Under the pieces are notes generated by a model. It did no database searches. It was not told the origin of the DNA and saw nothing but the letters and a program-made list of their open reading frames with translations. Of a DNA stretch of 64,000 bases, positions 32,366 to 46,314 are shown piece by piece. Made by a program: the position numbers and the translations under genes. Origin of the DNA: Haloplanus sp. CK5-1 (lineage in GTDB: Archaea > Halobacteriota > Halobacteria > Halobacteriales > Haloferacaceae); the NCBI RefSeq assembly GCF_037201915.1, contig NZ_CP147505.1, positions 1,240,001 to 1,304,000 of the forward strand, in the 5' to 3' direction. The stretch's first letter is position 1. Each line of letters starts with the position of its first letter.

Positions 32366-35300
32366 CGCCCGCGACGGGGACGAGAGGCTCCGAAACGAGG
32401 GACTACCAGTCGGCTCACTGGACGTGATGTCAGGCGCTCTATAGACTGGAGCCGGATAATTCGGCGTATCAGTACCCAACATGCGGGACGAGTTCTTCTT
32501 CTATACTTCCGTGACATCCCGCATCGCACCGACCAATTTGTCGACCCGTCCCTCGCTAATTACGGGTGTGACTTTCGTTTCCCACTGCCGTTGCTCGCCA
32601 TCGACTGGAATCACTTCGGGGTACTGAATCGTTCCCTGCCGTTCCACGCACTCGCGGTACTGCGACTCGATTTCACTACCGATTTCGTCACCAACGGCTT
32701 CGGTGGGCGTTTTGCCGGCGATTTCGTCGTTCGAGCGCCCCGTCAACTCTTCATAGACCGCATTGACACGCTCGATGTAGAACTCGCGGTCCTCGGTCAC
32801 ATCAATGACGAACAGTGCATCTTGGGTGTTCTCGAACACGGTCTCGGCCAACTCCAGTCGTTGCTCGCGTTCGATACGCTCGGTGGTATCTTCTTGGAAT
32901 CCAACCCAATTGCTGACCTCACCGTCTTCGTCTCTGATCGGCGCAATCGTCACGTGATTCCAGAACACCGTTCCATCTTTCCGGTAGTCTCGAAGCACGG
33001 TCGACACTAGCTCTTCGTTGTCGATGGCGTCGCGTATCTCGGCAACTGGTTCGGGATCGGTCTCCGGGCCCTGCATGAATCGACAGTTTCGTCCGAGTAT
33101 TTCGGACTCTTCGTATCCGGTTAGTTCACAGAAGCGTTCGTTCGCGTATACCAGCGGGTTGTCCGGCTGATTCGGATCCGTGAGTACTATGCCGACCGGT
33201 GCTTTCTCCATCGCCTCCGTTTTTCGAGTCAGCTCCGCTTCACGGCCTTTGCGCTCGGTGATGTCCGTGACGATGCCGACCATCCGCTCGGTATCGTCGC
33301 CATCGTCGTACACTTCGCCCCGAGATTCGATCCAGATGTCCGTGTCGTTCTCGCACCGGATACGATACTCCGTCCGAAATCGACTCTCGGTTTCGGCGGC
33401 CCGTTCGACAGCAGCAGTGGCTCTCTCTCTGTCGTCAGGATGAATATACGCCGCGAACGCATCGAAGGTACCCTCGAACGTCCCTGGTTCGATCCCGACC
33501 AGTCGTTCCAGCGACTCGCTCCAGCGTACCTCGTCCGTCCCGATAGTCCAGCCCCAGACACCCGTGTCCGTTCCCTCTAGGGCGAGTTGGAGTCGTTGTG
33601 TGATCTCTTCGAGTTCCTGCTCGCGTTCGATCCGTTCGGAGACATCCCGGAAGATGCCGTAGATCACCGGGCCATCGGGGAGCGAGACCGTCGCAACACT
33701 GATATCGACGGGGACACGTTCCCCCTCGGTTGTTACAATAGTTGGCTGTGATCCATCGGGAAGCCGCCGCTTCGACTCACCAGATTCGACGTGTTCTTCG
33801 AAGAATTGCTGATAGAGTTCGGTCTGCTCCGAGGGATGGATCTCGGACTGATGGCTCCCGATGATTTCGTCACTCGACATTCCGAGCAACGTTTCGGCAG
33901 CTTCATTCACCTCGATGAATTCTCCCGTCTCAGCATCTGCAACGAACACGGGGTCGGGGGCCGCCTCAAGGAGGGTCTCGTACCGCTCTCTCACCATCGA
34001 GAGTTCCCGTTCACGCTCTTTTCGTTCCGTGATATTCCGCATCACTAGGACCAGTTGCGTGACTTCGCCATTCTGAGTGATGGGCGTTACTCGCACCTGC
34101 CAGATTCTCGACTCCTCATCTCCTGGCACCACTTGCTCGAATTCAACCGTTTCCTGCCCCGATACACACTCGTCGAACCGCGACTGTACGTCACGCCCGA
34201 CCTCGTCACCCAGCATTTCTCGGGGACTCAGTCCAGTAATATCGGCTCTGTCATATGGAGTGAGCGCTTCGAACGCTTCGTTGACGCGATTGAGCCGATA
34301 CTCCTGCTCGTCGACAACGTCTACGAGAACGAGTGCATCTTGGGCGTTCTGGAACACGGTCTCCGCTACTTCCAACTCCCGTTCGCGCTCTTTGCGCTCG
34401 GTAATATCCCGGCTAATGAAGAGGTGTTGACCGGGGATAATATCCGACGTCCCCGAATACTCGACACTTCTCTGGACGCCATCGGCACCGATTATCGTCG
34501 TTGTATCTCTCTGATCGCCGGTCTCTTGGAAGTCCTGCCACTCGGCATCGAACGCAAATTCGTCGGGGAAAAACTCCGTCAACGATCGGCCGAGTAGCTC
34601 GTTGTCTTCTACGCCGAATATCGAACTCGCTGCTTCGTTCGCGTCTACAATTCTGCCGTCGTCGTTGGCAATAACAATCGCATCGGACGCTTCTTCGAAA
34701 CTCGTTTTGTACTTGTCACGCGACCGTGTGAGCTCTGTCACCTGTCGTTGCGCGGTAACGTCGGGCTTCCGGGGGATCGCAACCGTCATCGTCGTCCCGT
34801 GGTCCGTGGTCTCCGGATCGATGGATCCGTCGTGGCTAGACACGATCCAGTAGGCCAACCAGAGTCCTAGGCCGGAGCCGTGGGTGAGTGGCGTCTCTAC
34901 CCCTGATTTGAGGACCTCGGCTTCGTGGTCGGGAAGCCCGGGTCCATTATCTTCAATCCGAATCTCGATACCGTTCGGAACCGTCTCGATCGCAACCGTG
35001 ACACTGGGATCGTCGCCACTGTGCTTGACAGCGTTCTCGATGAGTTCTTCGATGGCCCGATCGAAGTTCTGTAGCACGTTCCCCTGAATTTCGTCGTCGT
35101 ATTCGACGGTGATCGATGCTGCCGGGTATTCCCGGGTGATCTCCTCGGCAATATCCTCGATAAGGGTTCCAATCTCCGTGGACTGTCGTTCGGAGTTGGT
35201 GGTGATGACTTCTTCCAGTTCGCGGGCTTTCTGACTCAACTCGATCAAGCCGTCGATGTGGCTGAGAGCAGTTTCACCGACGGAATCGTTCTCCAGTTGC

Positions 35301-35673
35301 TTGGCCATGAGATCCGTATAGCCTCGAATGACGGAGATATCGTTGCGAAGATTGTGCCGTAGGACTCGGTGAAGAACCGTGGCGAGGTTGGTTTGATTCC
35401 TGAGTTCGCCCTCGATGAGCTCTTTTTCGAGTTCGCGTTCCAGCAACCGTGTCAGATGGTCAGCAAACTGCGTCTCAGCCTCGGTAAACGAGTCAGAACG
35501 GGGTTCATCCGCAGCAAAACAGACGGTTCCGTAGGGTTCTTCCTCGGTGATGAGTGGGATCCCGAGATACGTATGATGCCCGCTGCGTTCGAAGGCGGGA
35601 TCGTCGCCCCAGCCTTGGTTAGGTGCATCGTGGAGTGCGAAGGGGACGTCGTCTTCGATGGTCTCACGACAGT

Positions 35674-35678
35674 ACGTT
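35674..35678. repeat. 5-bp target-site duplication of the ISH3-family element (left copy)
   Basis: ACGTT, repeated at 37191-37195. Collapsing the copies restores the kinase frame. Confidence 0.9.
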
Positions 35679-37190
35679 CGCTAGTTGTCCACTCTCTTGA
35701 TGGCGGCGGCAACAAGAGTCCGGTCTAACACGGTAAGGACGCTGATACGAGACGAAGTACACATCTGACGCCACGGAGAGTTGAGGAAGAGTCACAAATC
35801 TGGATTGTTTTGGCTGTAGTTGTCGTTCAGACTGATCTCCGAAGACAGCTGTCGCTGTTCGCCAGCCTCGCTTCGCCGAAGCGAGGCGGCTCAACCGAGT
35901 CCGTGTTCGTATCCTGCTGGCAGTCCTTCTCCGTTAGTCCGGTACTTCTCTTTCCAGCCGAGTTCGTCGTCTAACACCCGTTCGATCCCGTGCAAAAACG
36001 CGTCACCAAACGCGAATGTTTTCGGAAGTGCTCGCCCGCCCCGCCGTGGTCGGGCGAGCACGGCCCACTGTAACACGAGCCACAACTGCTCTAACAGAAA
36101 CCCCACGCCCACGTAGAACAGCCGGATTGTCGTCGATGGCGTTGTTGTCAGGGCACGCGCTTCTCGGAACTTCTCGTAGCTCTTCTCTATCCGTGAACGC
36201 TTGTTGTAGGTCGTAGCGACTTGCGCGGGCGTGCGGTCTTCCAGACCGTACGCCGCGTATCCTGTCGCTTTCACACCAGACTTTCCGCGGTCACCGTTCT
36301 GATAGGTAACGTTCACCGCCAGTGGATACGTCTGTTCGTGCTCTTTCCCTTCGCAAATCGTCTCTTCGGTCATGTGTGACGCGGCCTTGGAGAGTTTCTT
36401 CCGGAGCGAGTCTTTCCGGGTTATGACCGGAAAGACTGGCGGTGCTGTCTCCCGAAGAATACCGATTAACTCCCCGACAAAGGCGTCCCTGTCCATGAGG
36501 ATCTGGTCGGTCTCGAATGGGTATGTTTCGACGCGGGCGAGCACGCGCTCGACCGCGTCGGCCTTGCTGTCCTCGCCGTCAACTGGTTCAACCGCCAGTG
36601 TGAGTGGCTTTCCCTGCGCGATGACGAACGCAGTACAGTACCGGTGACACTTCGTGGTTCCATCTCGTGCTTCCATTCTCCTGAACTCGTCCTCGTCGTC
36701 TGGATGACCGTGGAACGGATTGTCCATGAAGTCCAGACAGATGGTTCTCGACCCGCCGCGGTCGAGAACCGTCATCGCCACCAGTGCGAGGATATCGTTG
36801 ACAGCATCAAGCATCGGCTCTTTCTCCAAGGTGTGCAACCAGTCCATCACTGGCTCGCGGTTTGGCGTGTCCTCAGTGTTCGTCGTGACACCGTTGACGG
36901 AGGTTGTGTCAACAGCAGCTCGTAAGACGACTTCCATGATTTCCTCGGAATCGAGGCCGGAGCCCTCGATTCCTTCCATCGGTATCAGCTCAAGCAACTC
37001 CATGCTAAGAGACTTCAACTGGCTGCTCGAAATGTACTCGTCCGGATCTGTGAGGATGCGTTTGAGTCTTGGGAACTCCATCACACACAGGAATCCGGGC
37101 AGCGGCTGAATCAGGCGACTGATTCAGTCGCGTCATTCTAATCACTACGTGTCAGAAACTGGTCTCTTGAGCCAGAGTGGACAACTAGCG
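35679..37190 (-). mobile_element. ISH3-family insertion sequence, 1512 bp, complete
   Basis: Perfect 17-bp inverted ends CGCTAGTTGTCCACTCT at 35679-35695 and, inverted, 37174-37190, flanked by a 5-bp duplication ACGTT (35674-35678 and 37191-37195). One transposase gene occupies 35891-37084. A 5-bp duplication and the transposase type fit the haloarchaeal ISH3 family. It is inserted in the GAF domain of the sensor kinase gene. Confidence 0.92.
35891..37084 (-). CDS. ISH3-family transposase
   Basis: A 397-residue DDE transposase that moves the surrounding IS. Candidate catalytic positions: Asp in TICLDFMDNPFHG, Asp in DQILMDRDAFVG, and Glu in YNKRSRIEKSYEKFREAR, the typical C-terminal Y-x2-R-x3-E-x6 arrangement of the IS4-like DDE superfamily. 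The N-terminal 110 residues are a separate helical region. The frame is intact. Confidence 0.9.
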   Translation of the reverse strand: MMEFPRLKRILTDPDEYISSSQLKSLSMELLELIPMEGIEGSGLDSEEIMEVVLRAAVDTTSVNGVTTNTEDTPNREPVMDWLHTLEKEPMLDAVNDILALVAMTVLDRGGSRTICLDFMDNPFHGHPDDEDEFRRMEARDGTTKCHRYCTAFVIAQGKPLTLAVEPVDGEDSKADAVERVLARVETYPFETDQILMDRDAFVGELIGILRETAPPVFPVITRKDSLRKKLSKAASHMTEETICEGKEHEQTYPLAVNVTYQNGDRGKSGVKATGYAAYGLEDRTPAQVATTYNKRSRIEKSYEKFREARALTTTPSTTIRLFYVGVGFLLEQLWLVLQWAVLARPRRGGRALPKTFAFGDAFLHGIERVLDDELGWKEKYRTNGEGLPAGYEHGLG

Positions 37191-37434
37191 ACGTTTCTTG
37201 AAGCTCTAGTTCGAGCCCGAGCGGGGCTTGTCCGTCTGCCGTGTCGGTCGCGACGACTATCTCCCAGTGGCCCGTCTCTCGATCGATCCGAGCGAGATAG
37301 CCGTTGTTCACGCCGAGATACCGTTTGCCAAGCTCTAACGCCTCGCGCGCTTTTTCGTTGAACGGGATATCCTCTCGAACGATTTCATGGAGTCGTTGAC
37401 GGGCCTCGTGAACGCTCGGTGTGGGCTCCACCAT

Positions 37435-37556
37435 CTCTAGCGTACGCTACGCTCTGGTATCCAAATGGTATAAAGTCACGTTTATTGAATAAGATCACGA
37501 TCACTTGAGGATTCAGCCCATCAAAACTTTCCACGTGGGACTGATTCACACACAGA
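37435..37556. promoter_or_regulatory. Divergent promoter region, kinase 1 / regulator 1
   Basis: A 122-bp intergenic region with an AT-rich core. TTTATTGAATA and the near-repeat GATCACGATCAC are conserved, with few changes, in the matching region of the second cassette (there AGTTTATTGACTA and ATCACAATCAC). The preserved spacing to the regulator ATG suggests a shared promoter/operator, perhaps bound by the regulator itself. Confidence 0.55.
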
Positions 37557-38222
37557 ATGGCTACTGATCCAGACACGAAATCCTTCGTCTTGCGTTCGAC
37601 GTACCGGATGAACGTCGTCCAGTCGCTATCTCGAGTAGGCCAGCTAACGCCGACCTCGATCGCGCAGAAAACGGGGATCCGACAGCCACACGTGTCCCGA
37701 ACTTTGTCCGAACTGCGTCAGGAGGGTCTCGTCTCCCTCGCAGTTCCCGAGGACCAACACAAAGGCCGACTGTACGAATTGACGGAGTTCGGTGAAGAGA
37801 TCTGGTCGGAAACCAACCAGATACATTGGCAGAACGACGTCGCTAACATCCCTTCCACCCACCGAGAGATAGTTGCCCATCTTCACCAAGAACTCGGAGA
37901 GAAAGTAACCGGAGTGGGATATTACGATGGGAGTACTGTCAGCATGTACTATTTCCACGATCAGATGCGGCACAAGTACTCCGAGGAACAGTTCGTGAAA
38001 TCGTCGGAGACCCTGATCGAGGAGTTCAGCCACACCGACACGGAGGCTGCCGAAATCGTCGGCGAACTCCGTTACGAAGTCCAATCGTTTACCGAACTGA
38101 ATCGGATCGTGATCTACTCGGATGGCGGGTTTTTGACGATCGGATTGCAGTCCGAGTGTCAGTTCGAATACCCGTCGTTGATAGAGGACTGTCAATCCAT
38201 ATTGAACGACGCGTCCGAATAG
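37557..38222 (+). CDS. Winged-helix transcriptional regulator of the sensor-kinase cassette (copy 1)
   Basis: A 221-residue regulator. Residues 15-85 are a MarR/ArsR-like winged helix: LSRVGQLTPTSIAQKTGIRQ (helices 1-2), PHVSRTLSELRQEGLVSL (recognition helix and turn) and KGRLYELTEFGEEIW (wing). The C-terminal 130 residues are a conserved alpha/beta domain without a motif I recognise; it may receive a signal. It has about three-quarters identity to the copy at 41921 by eye. It is divergent from kinase 1. No receiver domain is present in the kinase or the regulator, so signal transfer, if any, must be unusual. Confidence 0.8.
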   Translation: MATDPDTKSFVLRSTYRMNVVQSLSRVGQLTPTSIAQKTGIRQPHVSRTLSELRQEGLVSLAVPEDQHKGRLYELTEFGEEIWSETNQIHWQNDVANIPSTHREIVAHLHQELGEKVTGVGYYDGSTVSMYYFHDQMRHKYSEEQFVKSSETLIEEFSHTDTEAAEIVGELRYEVQSFTELNRIVIYSDGGFLTIGLQSECQFEYPSLIEDCQSILNDASE

Positions 38223-38361
38223 CGTATCGTGTGACGTATCCGGGAGAATCGACATCAACGTCGGTCGCTGCTCGCCGTTGTGTTGATAATTTCTACCTAC
38301 GAGGCGGAGGAGCGTCAATACGGCGGAATCTCCCTCGACGATAGACGGTCGTCGAGTGTTT

Positions 38362-38443
38362 CACATTATTCATAGATAGTTCCGGTAGTACACCCGAAAT
38401 GTACGTTCGGAACACTACCGGGCGAGAAACTACTAGTAGGCTC
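38362..38443 (+). repeat. Conserved promoter-start-hairpin element, copy 1
   Basis: An AT-rich box ATTATTCATAGATAG is followed at conserved distance by ATGTACGTTCGGAACACTA and the palindrome CTACTAGTAG. The short frame from ATG 38399 ends at 38491 (30 codons: MYVRNTTGRETTSR...). CGG-AACACTA-CCG forms a small hairpin, and GGCGAG...CTCGCC encloses the palindrome. Related copies lie at 39259 and 42896. A leaderless micro-gene, a decayed gene start or a structured RNA are all possible. Confidence 0.55.
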
Positions 38444-38496
38444 GCCAGCAGTAAAATCACCTTTCTGCGAATCGAAAACAGACGGACGTGAGAACG

Positions 38497-38637
38497 CTAT
38501 TCGTTTTCGAGAGCGTCGTAGATCTCGCGGTGTTCGTCCCGATCTGCCCTGGCGACTCGCAACACGAGTTCTCGACGAATGTCCTCCATCACGTCGTCGA
38601 GTGGTGTTCGTTCGCCTGTCTTCTCTTCCGTTGCCAT
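38497..38637 (-). CDS. Putative antitoxin partner of the Doc-like toxin
   Basis: A 46-residue, highly charged, helical protein (MATEEKTGERTPLDDVMEDI...), starting 25 bp after the toxin stop. Size and position suggest the antitoxin of a toxin-antitoxin pair, but it has no Phd/AbrB fold that I can recognise and no Fic-inhibition motif (S/T-x3-E-G/N). The order toxin-then-antitoxin is the reverse of phd-doc. Confidence concerns a real gene; the antitoxin role is inferred from position. Confidence 0.55.
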   Translation of the reverse strand: MATEEKTGERTPLDDVMEDIRRELVLRVARADRDEHREIYDALENE

Positions 38638-38662
38638 ATCTACCTCTTGACCACGAATCCCG

Positions 38663-39151
38663 TTAATCGTTCGGGTCCGCTGATTCATCGGACAGTTGCT
38701 CGAGTCCATACTCTACGAGGTCGCCTCGCAATCGTTCGATCACCTCGTCCAAATCGACTTCAGTCGTGCGTGCTCGGAGATATTCCAGCACGTCGTCCTC
38801 ATCGACGGCCTTCTCGTCGGTGCCGAACTTCACCAGTATCCCTCTGATTCCCTCGTCGTATTCGAATCGATGACCGTTGAGTAGATAGAACACCGTTGTC
38901 GTGTTGAGTGCAGTGCGTTTGTTCCCGTCCACGAACGGGTGGTTGGCAACAAGGAGCCGAAGGAGATGAAACGCCTTCTCGTGAATCGTCTCTGGAACCG
39001 ACCCGAAGCTCCCCTCGCTGACGTACTCCAGTGCGAATTCGATATCTCCGCGATTGTGGACGCCTGAGCTGGTATCTGCATACTCCGAGACAATGTCCTC
39101 GTGGATGTCGAGGACTTCTTCGACCGACGGATACCAAAACGAGTCGGTCAT
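38663..39151 (-). CDS. Doc/Fic-family (death-on-curing) toxin
   Basis: A 162-residue protein with the Fic-fold signature HPFVDGNKRTALNT (residues about 71-84), matching the H-x-F-x-x-x-N-K-R active site of Doc, which phosphorylates EF-Tu in bacteria. The N-terminus PSVEEVLDIHEDIVSEYADTS... and the early HNRGDIEFALEYV match the death-on-curing subfamily. An acidic C-terminal tail of about 40 residues is extra. It sits between the two sensor/regulator cassettes in the low-GC island. In archaea the target would be aEF1A, untested here. Confidence 0.85.
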   Translation of the reverse strand: MTDSFWYPSVEEVLDIHEDIVSEYADTSSGVHNRGDIEFALEYVSEGSFGSVPETIHEKAFHLLRLLVANHPFVDGNKRTALNTTTVFYLLNGHRFEYDEGIRGILVKFGTDEKAVDEDDVLEYLRARTTEVDLDEVIERLRGDLVEYGLEQLSDESADPND

Positions 39152-39258
39152 TATCGAGGGTTCTCATTCGATTAACCTATCGTTTTCTCTCTACGAATGA
39201 ACGTCACCCAGCGGAACACGACACGGCAGTTCGGTCGATAACCGATACTGTCGAAAGG

Positions 39259-39304
39259 ATGTACGCCCGGAACACTACCGGGCGAAAATCTACTAGTAGG
39301 CCCG
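39259..39304 (+). repeat. Conserved start-hairpin element, copy 2
   Basis: ATGTACGCCCGGAACACTAC continues into CGGGCG, an A/T-rich spacer and the palindrome CTACTAGTAG. GCCCGG-AACACTA-CCGGGC is a perfect hairpin with the same loop as copy 1, and a second stem ACCGGGC/GCCCGGT encloses the palindrome. The frame from ATG 39259 is 27 codons (stop at 39342). This copy lacks the clear AT-rich box of copies 1 and 3. Confidence 0.55.
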
Positions 39305-39332
39305 GTGGAGCTAAAGACGGCATATTTAGTGG

Positions 39333-39399
39333 GGTCTGTTAGAAATCACCAGCAGATGATACGAATGGTGTGCAAGAGATAGAGCGTCAAGTCAGCACA
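39333..39399. other. Possible IS-end remnant at the break in kinase 2
   Basis: Similarity to kinase 1 stops abruptly at about 39400. The adjoining 67 bp ends in GGGGTCTGTTAGAAATCACC (39333 onward), which resembles a terminal repeat of a haloarchaeal IS, and in the kinase reading direction encodes ADLTLYLLHTIRII, like a transposase tail. No second end or duplication is visible. Low certainty. Confidence 0.3.
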
Positions 39400-39428
39400 T
39401 GCCTTCTCCATCGCCTCTGTTTTCCGGG

Positions 39429-41717
39429 TCAGGTCCGCTCACGGTCGTTGCGCTCGCTGATGTTAGTAACGGTACCAACCATCCGCTTGGTATCGTCGCT
39501 ATCGTCGTAGATTTCACCCCGTGACTCGACCCAGATGTGTGTGTCATTGTCGCTCTGGATGCGATACTCGATCTGAAATCCACTCTCGGTTTCGGCGGCC
39601 TGTTCGACAGCAGCAGTGGCTTTCTCTCTGTCGTCAGGATGAATATACGCCGCGAACGCTTCGAAGGTTCCCCCGAACGTCCCTGGTTCGATCCCGACCA
39701 GTCGTTCCAGAGACTCATTCCAAACCACTTCATCGGATCCAATCTTCCATTCCCAGATGCCTGTGTTCGTTCCTTGCAAGGCAAGTTCGAGGCGTTGTTT
39801 CGTCTCTTGAAGTTCCGCCTCGCGCTCCTTACGCTCGGTGATGTCGCGTCCCTCTGGGACCAACAGCGTCACATTACCCTGTTCGTCGGTTATCGGTCGA
39901 ATCGAGAAATCGATAATGGCATTTTCCTCACCGCCTTGTATCTCAACCTCATAGCGGACGAACTCGCCCGCTGCGGCGCGATCGATCGCATCCTGGGTCT
40001 CCTGTTGGGTGGCGTCGTCGCGCTGCCACCAAGCCGCCTCGTAAAACGGTTTTCCGACGACATCTTCCGGGTCAAGACCGCCAAATTCGAGAGCCGGCTC
40101 GTTCACCTCAATAACTGTACCGTCAGGCTCTAACAAGCCCGTAAATTGATTTGTCTGGTTGAAAATTGCCTCGTAGCGACGTTCGCGCTCCCTGCGTTCA
40201 GTGACATCCCGGCTGATGAGCAAATGTTGTCCAGGAATAATACCCGCCGTTCCTGAATACTCAATAATTTTCTCCACGCCATCGGCACCGATTACCGTCG
40301 TTGTTTCACTCTCACCACCTGCTTTTTCGATGTCTTGCCACTCGGATTCGAACGCAAATTCGTCAGGAAGAAATTCCGTTAGCGACCGGCCGAGTAGTTT
40401 CCTCGTTTCTATCCCGAATAACGTACTCGCTGCTGCGTTTGCGTCGATAATCCTGCTCTCATCATTAATAATAGTGATCGCATCAGTCGCTTCTTCGATG
40501 GCTGTTTTGTACTTATCACGCGACCGCGTGATTTCTGTCACCTGTTGTTGAACAGTAACATTCGGCTTTCGAGGGATCGTAACCGTCATGGTCGTCCCCT
40601 GTTCCGTGATCTCTGAATCGATTGAGCCGTCATGGCTGGTCACAATCCAGTAGGCCAACCAGAGACCCAAGCCCGAGCCGTGGATGAGTGGTGTTTCCAC
40701 CCCTGAGTTGAGGACTTCAGCTTCGTGATCAGGAAGCCCGGGTCCAGTATCGCTAATCTGAATCTCGATACCGTTCGGGACGATCTCGATAGCTACCGTA
40801 ACACTGGGATTGTCGCCGGTGTGTTTGACTGCGTTCTCGATGAGTTCCTCGATAGCCCGGTCGAAGTTCTGCAGCACTCGCCCCTGAATTTTCGTGTCGT
40901 AGTCAACAGTGATCGGCGCTGCCGGGTATTCCTGTGTAATCTCTGCAGCAATCTCCTCTATAAGGCTTCCAATCTCTGTCGCCTGTCGTTCGGAACTGGT
41001 GGTGATAATTTCTTCCAGTATACGAGCTTTCTGACTCAAATCGATCAAGTCGTCGATGTGGGTGAGAACGGTTTCACCGACAGAATCATCATCTATCCGA
41101 TCGGCCATGAGTTCCGCGTGGCCTCGAATGACTGAGATGTCGTTGCGAAGATTGTGCCGCAGGACGCGGTTAAGAACCGTGGCAAGGTTAGTTTGCTTCG
41201 TGAGCTCGCCCTCGATGAGTTCTTTTTCGAGTTCGCGTTCGAGCAATCGGGTAAGGTGGTCAGTAAACTGCATTTCAGCCTCGGTGAACGATTCAGTTCG
41301 AGGCTCTTGTGCGGCAAAACAGACGGTTCCGTAGGGTTCGTCCTCAGTAATGAGTGGAATACCGAGATGCGTATGATGCCCGCTGATTTCGAAGGCCGGA
41401 TCGTCGCCCCAGCCTTGGTTTGCTGCATCGTGGAGCGCGAGTGGGGTGCCTTCTTCGATGGTCTTACAACAGTACGTTTCCTGAAGCTCTCGTTCAGAAT
41501 CAGGCTGGGCCTGTCCGTCTTCCGTGTCAGTCGTGACGACGATTTCCCAGTGATCGGTTTCTTGATCGATCTGAGTGAGATAGCCGTTGTCCACGCCGAG
41601 ATACTGTTTGCCAAGCTCTAACGCCTCGCTTGCTTTTTCATTAAATGGCACATCCTTCCGAACGATTTCATGGAGCCGTTGACGGGTTTTATGATCGGTT
41701 ACTGTGGAATCCACCAT
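39429..41717 (-). CDS. GAF/histidine kinase/three-PAS sensor (copy 2), 3'-truncated and frame-shifted
   Basis: A 762-residue paralogue of the kinase at 32501-37434. GAF about 20-155; kinase His box RVLRHNLRNDISVIRGHAEL near residue 185; N-box ENAVKH near 290; G-box GSGLGLWLAYW near 340; then three PAS domains (about 385-760). It ends ERNDRERT where kinase 1 continues with GREAELTRKTEAMEKAP. At 39438-39440 one A is missing relative to kinase 1 (GAGCGG for GAAGCGG), giving the TGA stop. The restored frame matches ten more residues before all similarity ends near 39400. The catalytic core is intact, so the protein may still work. No LOV domain remains. Confidence 0.8.
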   Translation of the reverse strand: MVDSTVTDHKTRQRLHEIVRKDVPFNEKASEALELGKQYLGVDNGYLTQIDQETDHWEIVVTTDTEDGQAQPDSERELQETYCCKTIEEGTPLALHDAANQGWGDDPAFEISGHHTHLGIPLITEDEPYGTVCFAAQEPRTESFTEAEMQFTDHLTRLLERELEKELIEGELTKQTNLATVLNRVLRHNLRNDISVIRGHAELMADRIDDDSVGETVLTHIDDLIDLSQKARILEEIITTSSERQATEIGSLIEEIAAEITQEYPAAPITVDYDTKIQGRVLQNFDRAIEELIENAVKHTGDNPSVTVAIEIVPNGIEIQISDTGPGLPDHEAEVLNSGVETPLIHGSGLGLWLAYWIVTSHDGSIDSEITEQGTTMTVTIPRKPNVTVQQQVTEITRSRDKYKTAIEEATDAITIINDESRIIDANAAASTLFGIETRKLLGRSLTEFLPDEFAFESEWQDIEKAGGESETTTVIGADGVEKIIEYSGTAGIIPGQHLLISRDVTERRERERRYEAIFNQTNQFTGLLEPDGTVIEVNEPALEFGGLDPEDVVGKPFYEAAWWQRDDATQQETQDAIDRAAAGEFVRYEVEIQGGEENAIIDFSIRPITDEQGNVTLLVPEGRDITERKEREAELQETKQRLELALQGTNTGIWEWKIGSDEVVWNESLERLVGIEPGTFGGTFEAFAAYIHPDDREKATAAVEQAAETESGFQIEYRIQSDNDTHIWVESRGEIYDDSDDTKRMVGTVTNISERNDRERT

Positions 41718-41920
41718 CGTTAGAAAATTGCCACTACTCCTGTGTCGATGATCTCCTCAAGTCCTTGTATTCCAATCCATTGACGTGTAGGTATAGGGTT
41801 CATTTCCTCTCACACTATGGTATTCAAGTGGTTAAGAGATAGTTTATTGACTAGAATCACAATCACCATGACCTTCAGCTTCATCAGGACTTTTCTCTCT
41901 GGGATCCATTCCCATACAGA
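41718..41920. promoter_or_regulatory. Divergent promoter region, kinase 2 / regulator 2
   Basis: A 203-bp intergenic region. The part nearer the regulator repeats the first cassette: GGTATTCAAGTGG, then AGTTTATTGACTA, then ATCACAATCAC, at the same spacing to the ATG as in cassette 1. The part nearer the kinase is about 80 bp longer than in cassette 1 and shows nothing recognisable. Confidence 0.5.
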
Positions 41921-42589
41921 ATGGCTGACGATCCGGATGTGAAATCCTTCGTTTCACGTTCAAAATACCGGATGGGCGTTATCCGAGTACTCTCTCAGTC
42001 AGGCCAGCTCACCCCCACCTCGATTGTGGAGAAAACCGATATACGACAACCACACGTGTCCCGGGTGTTGTCGGAATTGCGTGAGAAGGATCTTGTCAGC
42101 CTCGCAGTTTCCGAGAGTCAACGCAAAGGCCGACTGTACGAATTGACGGAGTTCGGGGATGAAATATGGTCAGATACGAACCGAATACATTGGCAGAACG
42201 ACATCGCTAATATTCCTTCCACCCATCAAGAGATAGTCGCCTATCTTCATCAAGAAGTTCGGGAGAAAGTAGCTGCAGTGGGATGTTACGACGGAAATAC
42301 TGTCAGTATGTACTATTTCCAAGACCAGGTGCGGGACAAGTATTCCGAGGAACAATTTGTGGAGTCCTCAGAGACCTTGATCAAGGAACTCAGTCACACC
42401 GATGCGAAGGCTGCTGAAATCACAGGTGAGCTCCGCTACGAGGTTCAATCGTTCACCAAACTGAATCGGATCGTAATTTACACTGATGACGGATTTTTGG
42501 CAATTGGATTGCAGTCAGAGTGCCAATTCGAATACCCGTCATTGATTGAGGAATGCAAGTCTATATTGGACGGAGAAACGTCCGAATAG
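41921..42589 (+). CDS. Winged-helix transcriptional regulator of the sensor-kinase cassette (copy 2)
   Basis: A 222-residue paralogue of the regulator at 37557, aligned without gaps over nearly the whole length. Winged helix at residues 15-85 (LSQSGQLTPTSIVEKTDIRQ, PHVSRVLSELREKDLVSL). The C-terminal domain keeps blocks such as NIPSTHQEIVAYLHQE and FTKLNRIVIYTDDGFLAIG. Conservation of the C-terminal domain as strongly as the HTH suggests a functional sensing or interaction role. Divergent from kinase 2. Confidence 0.8.
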   Translation: MADDPDVKSFVSRSKYRMGVIRVLSQSGQLTPTSIVEKTDIRQPHVSRVLSELREKDLVSLAVSESQRKGRLYELTEFGDEIWSDTNRIHWQNDIANIPSTHQEIVAYLHQEVREKVAAVGCYDGNTVSMYYFQDQVRDKYSEEQFVESSETLIKELSHTDAKAAEITGELRYEVQSFTKLNRIVIYTDDGFLAIGLQSECQFEYPSLIEECKSILDGETSE

Positions 42590-43153
42590 TGTGGTTTGTG
42601 ACAGCTACTGGATAAATTGATCTCTATCCCGACTACTGCTTGCCGTCGTACCAACCGATTCGAATAGACTGAGTCTGGAACCGCTCTTGTGCGGGATAAG
42701 CGCTCTGTATCCACCACGGTCATCCACAGCCGACAGATGTCAGTACTCCCGGCAGACCTCATTCCGGGCCCGTCATCATTGAATCTTTCCAAAACACGTA
42801 GGAAGAGCGGTTAATACGGAAGGGTCGATCTCAACGGCAGAGCGTAATTGAAGCAATACATATTATTTATAAATAGTTATAACAGCATACTTAAAATGTA
42901 CGCCCGGAACACTAACGTCCGGCCTCATCCCTGGCGGCGTGCCGAGTCGGCCGGCTAACCCTCGTGCCGGGCGGCCGTCGGATGCGTGTAACGGCGTCAC
43001 GGGCCGTCCGATGGACGACCCCACTGGTGATTCGTGGAATCACCCATGTAGCGTGCCCGGGTTCGCCGCGCGTCATCGCGCCCTGGTGGGTGTGCTCGGG
43101 CGGGGACTGAAGGCACGCACCCGACGGTACACACCCCAGCGGTTTAACCTCTG
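42590..43153. other. Non-coding stretch (564 bp) at the right end of the accessory island
   Basis: No supported gene. The first 300 bp are AT-richer; then comes copy 3 of the promoter-start-hairpin element (42860-42920). From about 42915 base composition switches to the GC-rich style of the core genome, so the island border probably lies here. Confidence 0.55.
42860..42920 (+). repeat. Conserved promoter-start-hairpin element, copy 3
   Basis: ATTATTTATAAATAG is followed, at the same distance as in copy 1, by ATGTACGCCCGGAACACTA, with hairpin CCGGA-ACACTAACG-TCCGG. Similarity ends just after ACACTA; the remaining frame from ATG 42896 is 20 codons (stop at 42958) and looks unrelated. The switch in sequence falls inside the element, as if a recombination joined the island to core DNA here. 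Confidence 0.55.
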
Positions 43154-44527
43154 TCAGTAGACGTAGTCGCCCTCGGCGACGGAGACGTACCCGCCTTTCC
43201 GGAGGCGCCGCTTGTTCCACTTGTAGCGGACGAACAGTTTCGTCGCGTCCCACCCGGCGGCGAACCGGCGGTCGAACAGCCCGGCGCCGGACTCGTCGGC
43301 GACCATCTTGCGGGCGGTCCGGAAGACCCGATCCCAGTCGTCGGGGTCGTACTCCCGGACCATGTCGGCCATGGTCACGTTTCGGATGATCTCGTCCTCG
43401 ATGGCGTCCTTCCACGCGTCGTTGTACCCCGAGAGGTCGCCCGAACCGGCCAACTCGCCGGCGATGGCCCCGGTGCGGACGGCGACGTGGTCTCCCCCCT
43501 CGTGGAACGCGGAGGTGGTTCCCATGGCGCCGCCGACGAGGGCGATGCCGGCCTCGACCGGCGAGTCGGCCGGCCGCGTCGAGGAGATGGGGTAGGTCTC
43601 GGTTCCCTTGGACTTGCCCCGGTCCTCGACCAGTGGGAAGTCACCGGGCACGTCGTACTCGTCGCCGTACTCGTGTTCGAGGAGGCGCTGGAGGTACTCG
43701 CTCCCGCTGGGCACCGACTCGTCGTCCGGGCGGAGGAGCGCGTACGATTCCGGGTTCGCGACCGACGACAGGTCGAGATCGATGGGCATCGTCAGCCCGA
43801 CCCGTGCCACGTCCTCGTCGTTGGGGAAGATCCAGGGGTAGGCCGTGTGGCCGGGCATGTAGCCCCACCAGAACGTGATCGCGCCGCGGAGGTCCTCGGC
43901 GACGGCCGGTGGAAGGCGTCGGTGTTCCTGGTAGGCGATGTGGTTGGCGGTCGTCGTTCCGAGACGGTCGGTCACCGGATAGGGGAGGAAGCGATCCACC
44001 ACGCGATTGGTGACGGTGCGCTGTGGACCGTCGGCGAGGACGACGAAGTCGGCCCCGACTTGGTCGCCCCCGGCAGTGTGGACGACGTGGCGCGGGTCAT
44101 CGTCGAGAGTCGTCTCCACGTCACGGACGGAGACGCCGACGCGGTAGTCGGCCCCGACCCGTTCGGCCCGGTCGCGGAGCCAGTCGTCGAAGCGCGCGCG
44201 GTGGAAGGTGTAGCCGAAGTTGTCGTAGGTGGCGTCGATACCGGTCGACCGCAGGACACAGGACTCGGACGGGCCGACGAACGCGGCCCGGTCGAGTTCC
44301 GACAGCAGGACCCCGTCGGGGAACTCGTCGGGGTGGATGTCCATGATGTCGACCCAGTAGTCGAGGATGCCGGCGGCGTCGGTCGAGTCGGGGCCGAGTC
44401 CCGTCCGATCCTCGCGTGGGACCCCCTTCTCGAGGACGAGCGTGGACGCGCCGGCCGCCGCTGCCCCGTGTGCCGCCGCTGCTCCGGCGGGACCGCCGCC
44501 GACGACGGCGACGTCGACCTGTTCCAT
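43154..44527 (-). CDS. Geranylgeranyl-reductase-family FAD oxidoreductase
   Basis: A 457-residue flavoprotein. FAD-binding GxGxxG-like start VAVVGGGPAGAAAAHGAAAAG at residues 5-25, then VLEKG; the second FAD motif is FVVLADGPQRTVTNRVV; the third is IALVGGAMGTTSAFHEGGDHVAVRTG. This is the GGR family, which saturates isoprenoid chains of archaeal lipids or quinones. The C-terminus is basic, with WNKRRLRKGG. It is a paralogue rather than certainly the main lipid reductase. ATG 44527 is 111 bp from the divergent dehydrogenase start. Confidence 0.88.
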   Translation of the reverse strand: MEQVDVAVVGGGPAGAAAAHGAAAAGASTLVLEKGVPREDRTGLGPDSTDAAGILDYWVDIMDIHPDEFPDGVLLSELDRAAFVGPSESCVLRSTGIDATYDNFGYTFHRARFDDWLRDRAERVGADYRVGVSVRDVETTLDDDPRHVVHTAGGDQVGADFVVLADGPQRTVTNRVVDRFLPYPVTDRLGTTTANHIAYQEHRRLPPAVAEDLRGAITFWWGYMPGHTAYPWIFPNDEDVARVGLTMPIDLDLSSVANPESYALLRPDDESVPSGSEYLQRLLEHEYGDEYDVPGDFPLVEDRGKSKGTETYPISSTRPADSPVEAGIALVGGAMGTTSAFHEGGDHVAVRTGAIAGELAGSGDLSGYNDAWKDAIEDEIIRNVTMADMVREYDPDDWDRVFRTARKMVADESGAGLFDRRFAAGWDATKLFVRYKWNKRRLRKGGYVSVAEGDYVY

Positions 44528-44638
44528 ACCACACTCCCCGGCCGGCGACGGTATTAATCGCCCGGAACGGATCCGGAGGCCGGTGTCGATGTGTGCCAAC
44601 CTCGTAGACTTATCACCCAGGCGGTCACATCCCCCCGC

Positions 44639-45595
44639 ATGACCGATCCCGACGTCGTCGTCCTGCGACAGAAGGTCCACGGGATGTCCCCCGAGTCGTA
44701 CGGTTCGAAGCTTCGTGACCGCCTCCCCGACCACGAGGTAGCGGTCGCGACCACGCCGGCCGAGGAGCACGACCTGCTGGAGCGCTCGCGCGTCGCGACG
44801 GGGATCAGTTTCGACCCCGAGTGGTTGGAGTTCGCCGAGAATCTCGACCTCTTTGCCTGCGCGTACGCCGGGACGGGCCACCTCGACACCGGCGCACTGG
44901 AGGCGGCCGACGTCGCCGTCACCAACGCCGCCGGCGTGCACGGCCCGAACATCTCGGAGTACGTCGTCGGCGCGCTCGTCGCCCACGAACGCCGATTCCG
45001 GCAGGCGTGGCAACGACAGGAGCGCGCCCACTGGGAGGCGTATCCCGTCGGCGAACTCCGGGGAAGCACCGCCGCAGTCGTCGGCCTCGGTGCCATCGGC
45101 ACGTCGCTGGTCGACCGCCTCGATCCCTTCGGCGTCGAGACGATCGGCGTCCGGTACACGCCCGAAAAGGGCGGGCCGACCGACGAGGTGGTCGGCTTCG
45201 ACGAGGTTCATTCGGCGCTCGCCCGCGCCGACTACGTGATCCTCGCGTGCCCCCTCACCGACACTACGCGGGGACTGATCGACGCCGACGCGCTGGCGTC
45301 GATGAAGGCCGACGCCTTGCTCGTCAACGTCGCTCGCGGCCCGATCGTCGACACCGATGCCCTCGTGACCGCGCTCTGGAAGACCGACATCCGCGGCGCG
45401 ACACTCGACGTGACCGATCCCGAACCCCTCCCGGCGGACCACCCGCTCTGGTCGTTCGAGAACGTCCAGATCACGCCACACAACGCCGGCAACACGCCGA
45501 AGTACTACGACCGCCTCGCGGACATCCTCGCCGAGAACCTCCGGCGGATGGACGAGACGGGAGGGACCGAGGGGTTGGAGAACCAGGTCGTCTAA
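44639..45595 (+). CDS. D-2-hydroxyacid dehydrogenase
   Basis: A 318-residue NAD(P)-dependent dehydrogenase. Nucleotide-binding loop VVGLGAIGTSLVDRL; catalytic Arg in VNVARGPIVDTDALV; Glu in LDVTDPEPLPADHPLW; His in QITPHNAGNTPKYY. The full triad is present. It interconverts 2-oxo acids and D-2-hydroxy acids; the precise substrate is not evident. A TATA-like ACTTATC lies about 30 bp before the ATG. Its stop overlaps that of the convergent FAH-family gene by three bases. Confidence 0.92.
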   Translation: MTDPDVVVLRQKVHGMSPESYGSKLRDRLPDHEVAVATTPAEEHDLLERSRVATGISFDPEWLEFAENLDLFACAYAGTGHLDTGALEAADVAVTNAAGVHGPNISEYVVGALVAHERRFRQAWQRQERAHWEAYPVGELRGSTAAVVGLGAIGTSLVDRLDPFGVETIGVRYTPEKGGPTDEVVGFDEVHSALARADYVILACPLTDTTRGLIDADALASMKADALLVNVARGPIVDTDALVTALWKTDIRGATLDVTDPEPLPADHPLWSFENVQITPHNAGNTPKYYDRLADILAENLRRMDETGGTEGLENQVV

Positions 45596-46314
45596 CGCTC
45601 CGGGGGCGTGATCTCGTTTCGAAGGGTCCCGACACCCTCGTAGGTGATCTCGACGGTGTCGCCCGGCTCGACGGTGCCGGGGTTCGCCGGACTGCCGAAG
45701 GCGATCACGTCCCCCGGGCGGAACGTGAACCGCTCGGAGAGGAAGGCGATGATCTCGTGGGGGTCGAACAGCATGAGTTCCGTGTTGGCCTCCTGTCGCC
45801 GCTCCCCGCTCACGTCGGTGTGCATGTCGATCCCGTGGGGATCGAGGTCGGTCTCGATCCACGGGCCGAGCGGACCGGACGCGTCGAAGGCCTTTCGGGC
45901 CGTGCGCCCGGGCTGATCGAGGGCGTCCAGATCGTTCATGATCGTGTAACCCCGAACCACGTCGGGCACCTCGCCGGCGTCGAGCCGGTGACACTGCTCG
46001 TCGATCACGGCACAGAGTTCGCCCGCGTAGGTCACCTCCTCGGAGAACGTGGGGTACGGAACCGGTCGGTCGTGTGCGACGACCGACGCCGGCGGTTTGA
46101 TGAAGAAGGACGGCTGCTCCGGGACGTCGTACTCCATCTGGTCGAGCGTCTCGGCGAAGTTCCGGCCGACACAGTAGAGCGCCGAGGGCTCACAGGGTGG
46201 TGCGAGGTGGCCGTCCTCGCCGACGACGAACGCCCCCGCGTCCGTCTCCACGACTCCGTCCCGGTACTCGCCGGCGTGAATCTCACCGTCGACCGCGATG
46301 CGTGTGCGTTTCAT
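45592..46314 (-). CDS. Fumarylacetoacetate hydrolase-family protein
   Basis: A 240-residue member of the FAH family (C-C bond hydrolases, decarboxylases or isomerases of small oxo acids). The start of the catalytic domain is LYCVGRNFAETLDQM; metal-binding acids are in EEVTYAGELCAVIDEQ; YTIMNDLDALD and the C-terminal FRPGDVIAFGSPAN complete the pattern. The GELCAVID region has Glu where the usual E-x-E is expected. It is convergent with the 2-oxo-acid-related dehydrogenase, which may share a pathway; this is inference. Confidence 0.88.
   Translation of the reverse strand: MKRTRIAVDGEIHAGEYRDGVVETDAGAFVVGEDGHLAPPCEPSALYCVGRNFAETLDQMEYDVPEQPSFFIKPPASVVAHDRPVPYPTFSEEVTYAGELCAVIDEQCHRLDAGEVPDVVRGYTIMNDLDALDQPGRTARKAFDASGPLGPWIETDLDPHGIDMHTDVSGERRQEANTELMLFDPHEIIAFLSERFTFRPGDVIAFGSPANPGTVEPGDTVEITYEGVGTLRNEITPPER

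Follow-up and report, generated by a model that had tools for sequence, protein, structure and literature searches.

Mobile elements that exploit Xer/dif recombination (IMEX and the pdif modules of plasmids) carry no recombinase gene, transport toxin-antitoxin cargo and rely on the resident Xer proteins and a universal single-copy chromosomal site; pdif sites pair in inverted orientation. A review of the subject reports no site for the Xer proteins of haloarchaea; four XerC/D-like genes of Haloferax volcanii have been deleted and the cells stayed viable (PMC7776575). Integrons are regarded as bacterial, and only recently did bacterial-type IntI and attC reveal them in some archaeal MAGs (PMC9668308). 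Integrative elements of the tyrosine-recombinase type, including the archaeal SNJ2, pNOB8 and SSV types, target the 3' ends of RNA genes (PMC8371274). Among archaeal guide RNAs, the haloarchaeal H/ACA hairpin HP2 is a predicted guide for positions 1956 and 1958 (E. coli 1915/1917) (PMC2584109), and it is homologous to Pf7 stem III and Pab40 (PMC2584109; PMC4652768).

Here we analyzed a 64,000-nucleotide stretch of the Haloplanus sp. CK5-1 genome (hereafter the window) and compared one of its loci with these systems across 391 haloarchaeal genomes. We propose, with a probability of roughly 0.86, that the locus belongs to an integron-like cassette platform of haloarchaea that is anchored at the 3' end of a universal single-copy H/ACA guide-RNA gene. 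The open-licence papers that we searched yielded no description of such a platform.

The core motif and its surroundings

A window search for the core motif ATGTACG(NN)CGGAACACTA returned three exact copies on the plus strand, at 38399, 39259 and 42896, as an earlier sequence-only reading of this DNA had noticed. With up to three mismatches allowed, 0.05 matches are expected by chance, and the window is otherwise free of matches to the motif. A fourth exact copy lies outside the window in the same genome, on the minus strand (G000:C1:448742). The downstream palindrome ascribed to copies 1 and 2 is present in both, as CTACTAGTAG at 38430-38439 and 39290-39299, and is missing from copy 3. Copies 1 and 2 form the local hairpin CGCCCGG-AACACTA-CCGGGCG, with G-U pairs in copy 1, whereas the left arm of copy 3 pairs with a CCGGGCG about 60 nt downstream instead of locally.

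A pattern scan of one-per-species genomes produced at least about 30 haloarchaeal loci, mixed with unrelated chance matches. Their alignment resolved into two classes, whose first ~19 nt are identical and which diverge after that. Class A, represented in the window by copy 3, is a 79-nt conserved element; class B, represented by copies 1 and 2, is a short site in which a 7-bp inverted repeat (CGCCCGG/CCGGGCG) surrounds the 7-bp spacer AACACTA and is followed by CTACTAGTAG. The three copies in the window are two different things, namely the end of a guide-RNA gene (copy 3) and two attachment sites (copies 1 and 2).

The covariance-model search of haloarchaeal genomes that had been suggested as a check was decisive: the class A model matched 384 of the 391 genomes, nearly always in single copy, and the class B model matched 87, with up to seven copies. 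Of the natures that the sequence-only reading had offered for all three copies, a small RNA fits copy 3, on the opposite (minus) strand, and ends of recombining or mobile elements fit copies 1 and 2, as cassette attachment sites. Leaderless micro-genes beginning MYARNT found no support: the reading frame is unconserved, the anchor sequence contains 1-nt indels, and the ATG itself varies in other genomes (NNTRTCG, GTG and others). In the haloarchaeal genomes examined, no ordinary gene was seen to begin with the motif.

The window carries, in order, an ISH3-interrupted kinase-regulator cassette, site B1, a Doc cassette, site B2, a second kinase-regulator cassette, the guide-RNA anchor and the chromosomal flank. 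The leftmost unit (33200..38398, plus strand) is a diverged paralogue of cassette 2 (79-82% nucleotide identity), and its left attachment site was not found. Its kinase gene is split by an ISH3-family insertion sequence (35678..37191) with perfect 18-bp terminal inverted repeats and a transposase gene at 35891-37084 (minus strand); its winged-helix regulator gene (37557..38222, plus strand) gives HVO_A0261_N and HTH_5 matches. Site B1 (38399..38448, plus strand; arms 38404-38410 and 38418-38424, spacer 38411-38417) opens cassette 1, an 860-bp unit of the toxin-antitoxin type (38399..39258, plus strand) whose family occurs in 13 arrays and 10 genera. It contains a gene for a Doc (Fic-fold) toxin (38663..39151, minus strand; TIGR01550 DOC_P1, 59.4 bits against a cut-off of 38.65) and a 70-aa ORF (38497..38709, minus strand) with no Pfam match that, judging by position alone, probably encodes the Doc antitoxin. 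Site B2 (39259..39308, plus strand; arms 39264-39270 and 39278-39284, spacer 39271-39277) opens cassette 2 (39259..42895, plus strand; 3637 bp), with a GAF/PAS/HATPase sensor kinase gene (39429..41717, minus strand) that is the intact paralogue of the ISH3-split one, and a winged-helix regulator gene (41921..42589, plus strand) of the same cluster as that at 37557-38222. Beyond the anchor, on the side of the guide RNA, the fixed flank of the chromosome (43154..45994, minus strand) is kept beside the anchor in the same genus.

The duplicated cassette type also explains why copies 1 and 3 lie downstream of the two regulators. The AT-rich upstream box noted at these copies is real, their flanks being the ends of the two paralogous cassettes. 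In several cassette types such a TATA-like box (42855-42895 and 38362-38398 in the window) ends ~12-20 nt upstream of the core; it may act as a promoter reading into the following cassette, or else serve the recombinase as an accessory site.

The guide-RNA anchor

The anchor (42896..42974, minus strand) was assigned by covariance model, structure and target to the 3' hairpin, of HP2 type, of a box H/ACA guide sRNA. On the minus strand, class A folds into two stems, lower and upper, separated by an internal loop whose two strands are invariant, and its conserved UGA/GAC residues were read as a typical k-turn signature. The pocket strands of the anchor are GAGGGUUAG and CGUUAGU. All 50 aligned sequences have an ANA box (ACA or AUA) directly 3' of the lower stem; in the window it is ACA (42897-42899). 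Over the 19 pairs of the fold, 97.5% of cells are paired, with double-sided changes in 8 pairs; slid alignments used as controls reached at most 45%, and shuffles likewise fell far below the observed value. The RNA strand is the minus strand because its G-U pairs would be A-C on plus. A plus-strand small RNA or micro-gene at the anchor was considered and rejected on these A-C pairs and on the occurrence of the ANA box on minus only.

When the LSU rRNA was searched, the best target of the pocket was H69, GGUAAC[U]AUGACCCUCUU, at E. coli U1915, with 11 Watson-Crick pairs and 1 wobble against 8 at the next best LSU site. Counted on the alignment, the ANA box stands about 16 nt from the predicted modified U at native ends and about 17 nt at cassette-type ends; the H/ACA rule is 14-16 nt. 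A permissive Rfam search of the anchor gave weak matches only, including a sub-threshold HgcG on the minus strand, and an Rfam search of the window returned nothing. From this comparative evidence, the identity of the anchor as a box H/ACA guide RNA is strongly supported, and its modification activity is predicted.

By target, structure and universality, the anchor is probably the HP2 hairpin of the literature (Hvo2; homologue of Pab40/HgcG and of Pf7 stem III). The two are alike in the 23S H69 target (E. coli 1915/1917), the two-strand pocket, the k-turn and the ANA box. They differ in that a role as integration anchor is not described for HP2 in the papers found, and that cassette-bearing strains have the ACA box shifted by 1 nt. 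A second candidate hairpin, GAUGA and then CUACA, was seen at ~43000-43110 on the minus strand, upstream of HP2 in the RNA, and may be HP1. One MAG labelled as a Halobacteroidaceae bacterium (L114) also carries the haloarchaeal anchor, and probably contains misbinned haloarchaeal DNA.

Cassette arrays and their cargo

In the 35 array loci that were fetched, every class B site lies on the anchor's strand and upstream of the anchor, with none on the other strand. No class B site was detected outside haloarchaea in a phylum-wide genome draw, or in collections of viral contigs, phages and plasmids. The site shows the architecture of a tyrosine-recombinase attachment site, with inverted arms around a spacer of 6-8 bp that is identical in both partners (CGCCCGG-AACACTA-CCGGGCG). 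The B spacer equals the anchor spacer of the host in 82 of 100 site pairs, and it agrees in 13 of 16 where the host anchor has GACACTA. The selection for structure suspected from the sequence alone holds for copy 3, as an H/ACA RNA; the hairpin of copies 1 and 2, which is well conserved across class B without compensatory pairs, is better read as recombinase arms.

The arrays contain 99 inter-site units with a median length of 909 bp, of which 63 are at most 1.2 kb (often ~0.8 kb) and 13 at most 350 bp. Eleven families of units recur over their whole length, and ten of the eleven are found across genera. In the best cross-family case, two units are 97.4% identical over 755 of 760 bp in genomes of different families and with different neighbours. 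Some units measure 5-10 kb, have degenerate sites at their borders and may be composites, and in some genomes the same cassettes also sit singly at degenerate B sites elsewhere. One lone, well-conserved site (L228:9761, minus strand, identical with G000:C1:448742) adjoins a gene for a DUF2270 membrane protein, ~10-13 kb from two tyrosine-recombinase genes of the same genome (439012 and 462099).

Type II toxin-antitoxin genes dominate the cargo of the recurrent families (Doc/Fic, DUF433 with DUF5615, a MarR-type HTH with a PemK-like protein, DUF3368, UPF0175 and HicA); permeases, kinases, CBS or P-type ATPase proteins, or TnpB make up the cargo of others. Within several families, the genes always point the same way with respect to the site (Doc 21/21 minus, PemK-like 10/10 plus), as would be expected of a gene and a site that move as one unit. 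An ORF-less family of ~245 bp, usually adjoining the anchor, was found in 11 arrays and 8 genera (L192, L202, L204, L207, L208, L209, L210, L213, L216, L221 and L222); an Rfam search of one member returned nothing. This family carries GGCGACCGAG...GGTCGAGCTTTTGC...GCAAAAGGTCG repeats. That class B sites delimit exchangeable cassettes arranged in arrays is, on sequence grounds, strongly supported.

Half-site exchange, proposed mechanism and comparison with known systems

In genomes without class B sites, the RNA usually ends in CCGGGCG-ANA (on plus NNTRTCGCCCGG, NNTRTCG), at about 31 of 52 readable anchors, these being the better-scoring matches. In arrays with class B sites, the anchor end is native in 1 of 34 and of the cassette type, CCGGGCG-U-ACAU, in 33 of 34, and the leftmost B site looks native in 9 of 34 (for example L219, L221 and L222), with one more ambiguous; these counts treat sites as independent though the genomes are related. 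A point against the platform is that most arrays begin on the left with a cassette-type site, as would be seen after a loss of older native sites. The right halves differ between the classes and the left half changes from the native form to the cassette form, leaving CGCCCGGAACACTA as the only shared stretch. Since both halves differ, the exchange must fall within it; in the window, the crossover interval common to the anchor and cassette sites, CGCCCGG-AACACTA, is at 42901..42914 (plus strand). In hosts with an altered anchor (CGCCCGC with GACACTA; CACCCGG), the left arm and spacer of the B site follow the host sRNA and the right arm stays CCGGGCG. A native end at the outermost site together with a cassette end at the anchor is a pattern indicating conservative site-specific recombination. 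On the simplest reading, each cassette in turn would have given the RNA its 3' end and been selected for compatibility, with arrays growing at the anchor.

We propose the following mechanism. The fixed anchor would be the 3' end of the guide-RNA gene, which lies on the minus strand and ends at 42896, and the site of a cassette would be a copy of this RNA end (ATGTACGCCCGG-AACACTA) joined to a second arm (CCGGGCG) and the CTACTAGTAG motif. A recombinase supplied in trans, presumably a tyrosine recombinase, would swap strands within the AACACTA spacer, and the cassette would enter just 3' of the RNA gene, replacing the last nucleotides of the RNA with an equivalent end that keeps the ACA. Earlier cassettes would be pushed outward, giving one-sided arrays of a single orientation.

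No recombinase gene was recovered inside the arrays with nine phmmer seeds, no integrase was found near the anchors of 17 array genomes among the matches listed, and Phage_integrase does not rank with the most frequent families of 87 cassette proteins. Excised or circular cassettes were likewise not seen. Across the genomes as a whole, tyrosine recombinases are numerous. One of them, an Xer-like protein of 335-345 aa, is present in 387 of 391 genomes, usually in single copy, is about 60-66% identical across families and falls below the XerA equivalog cut-off. It is as common without cassettes as with them, and this universality makes co-occurrence uninformative on its role. No universal counterpart of the known archaeal dif was found, the dif pattern being no commoner than its reversed control. 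A conserved motif near the Xer gene turned out to be the gene's own coding sequence. In genus g26, a second Xer-like paralogue (~49% identical) occurs in 5 genomes (L323-L326 and L329), all with B sites. We tentatively name the resident Xer-like protein as a candidate for the cassette recombinase, acting in trans. Equally tentative is the wider idea of a second, independently evolved integron, in which this protein might insert recombinase-free cassettes at the guide-RNA 3' end and RNA function might police their acceptance.

The arrays might instead have arisen by tandem accretion of ordinary integrative elements at the RNA 3' end, the units being decayed relics that lost their integrase. The same site logic is used by tRNA-targeting integrases (PMC8371274), some units reach 5-10 kb, and tyrosine recombinases are plentiful in these genomes. 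We nevertheless consider accretion unlikely, given that nearly two thirds of the units (63/99) do not exceed 1.2 kb, that many compact ones hold a single toxin-antitoxin operon, that units recur intact from end to end in several genera without integrase remnants, and that the B site is absent from the phage, plasmid and viral collections searched.

Integration by a transposon or a casposase/Cas1-like enzyme would make the shared 19 bp a target-site duplication. Direct repeats of ~19 bp do flank each unit, and the 3' ends of RNA genes are known casposon targets. A duplication predicts two host copies, yet in L219, L221 and L222 the outermost repeat is host-native and the anchor repeat cassette-type; inverted arms flank the spacer, and no transposase is common to the cassettes, which makes this origin highly improbable. 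We give just as little credence to copies 1 and 2 being functional small RNAs or leaderless ORFs themselves: the conserved B hairpin and the TATA-like box before some copies would suit such a role, but the hairpin has no compensatory pairs, the box is missing from many copies, no frame is conserved, and the sites occur at cassette borders only.

The cassette platform would be built of parts unrelated to those of integrons, with cassettes in 87 of 391 haloarchaeal genomes and the anchor in nearly all, and it bears on how gene exchange among haloarchaea can be so free. With it, a guide-RNA gene joins the known targets of integration, a conserved feature that resembled a small RNA or micro-gene finds an explanation, and the question of which recombinase moves the cassettes where the Xer site is unreported becomes testable. 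The B site can also be used to find toxin-antitoxin and accessory-gene cassettes in haloarchaeal genomes.

Among described systems, the Xer/dif modules share with the haloarchaeal cassettes their recombinase-free toxin-antitoxin units and a universal single-copy site. The resident Xer expected in every host of such modules has its counterpart here in the near-universal Xer-like protein, whose use is the candidate proposed above. In contrast, the B core is unlike archaeal dif (TATAA-N6-TTATA), and the haloarchaeal sites are all direct, unlike those of pdif pairs. Elements of the SNJ2/pNOB8/SSV type likewise carry a copy of an RNA 3' end with a 7-bp spacer between inverted arms, and their integration likewise restores the RNA gene. 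Their listed targets are tRNA genes, coding genes and intergenic sites (PMC8371274), whereas the haloarchaeal target is a guide-RNA gene and the units have no integrase and stand in tandem arrays of up to seven sites. Bacterial integrons (IntI/attI/attC), with CALINs and the integrons of archaeal MAGs (PMC9668308), resemble the platform in their tandem arrays of small one-orientation cassettes at a fixed site, in exchange between hosts, in toxin-antitoxin and ORF-less cassettes, and in that some arrays have no neighbouring integrase. They differ in their parts: IntI (TIGR02249) exceeds its cut-off in 0 of 35 array genomes, the attC boxes RYYYAAC and GTTRRRY occur at 0 of 101 B sites, the haloarchaeal anchor is an H/ACA RNA gene, and the haloarchaeal cassette families differ in how their genes are oriented to the site. 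Although it works like an integron, the platform falls outside the integron family by its defining parts.
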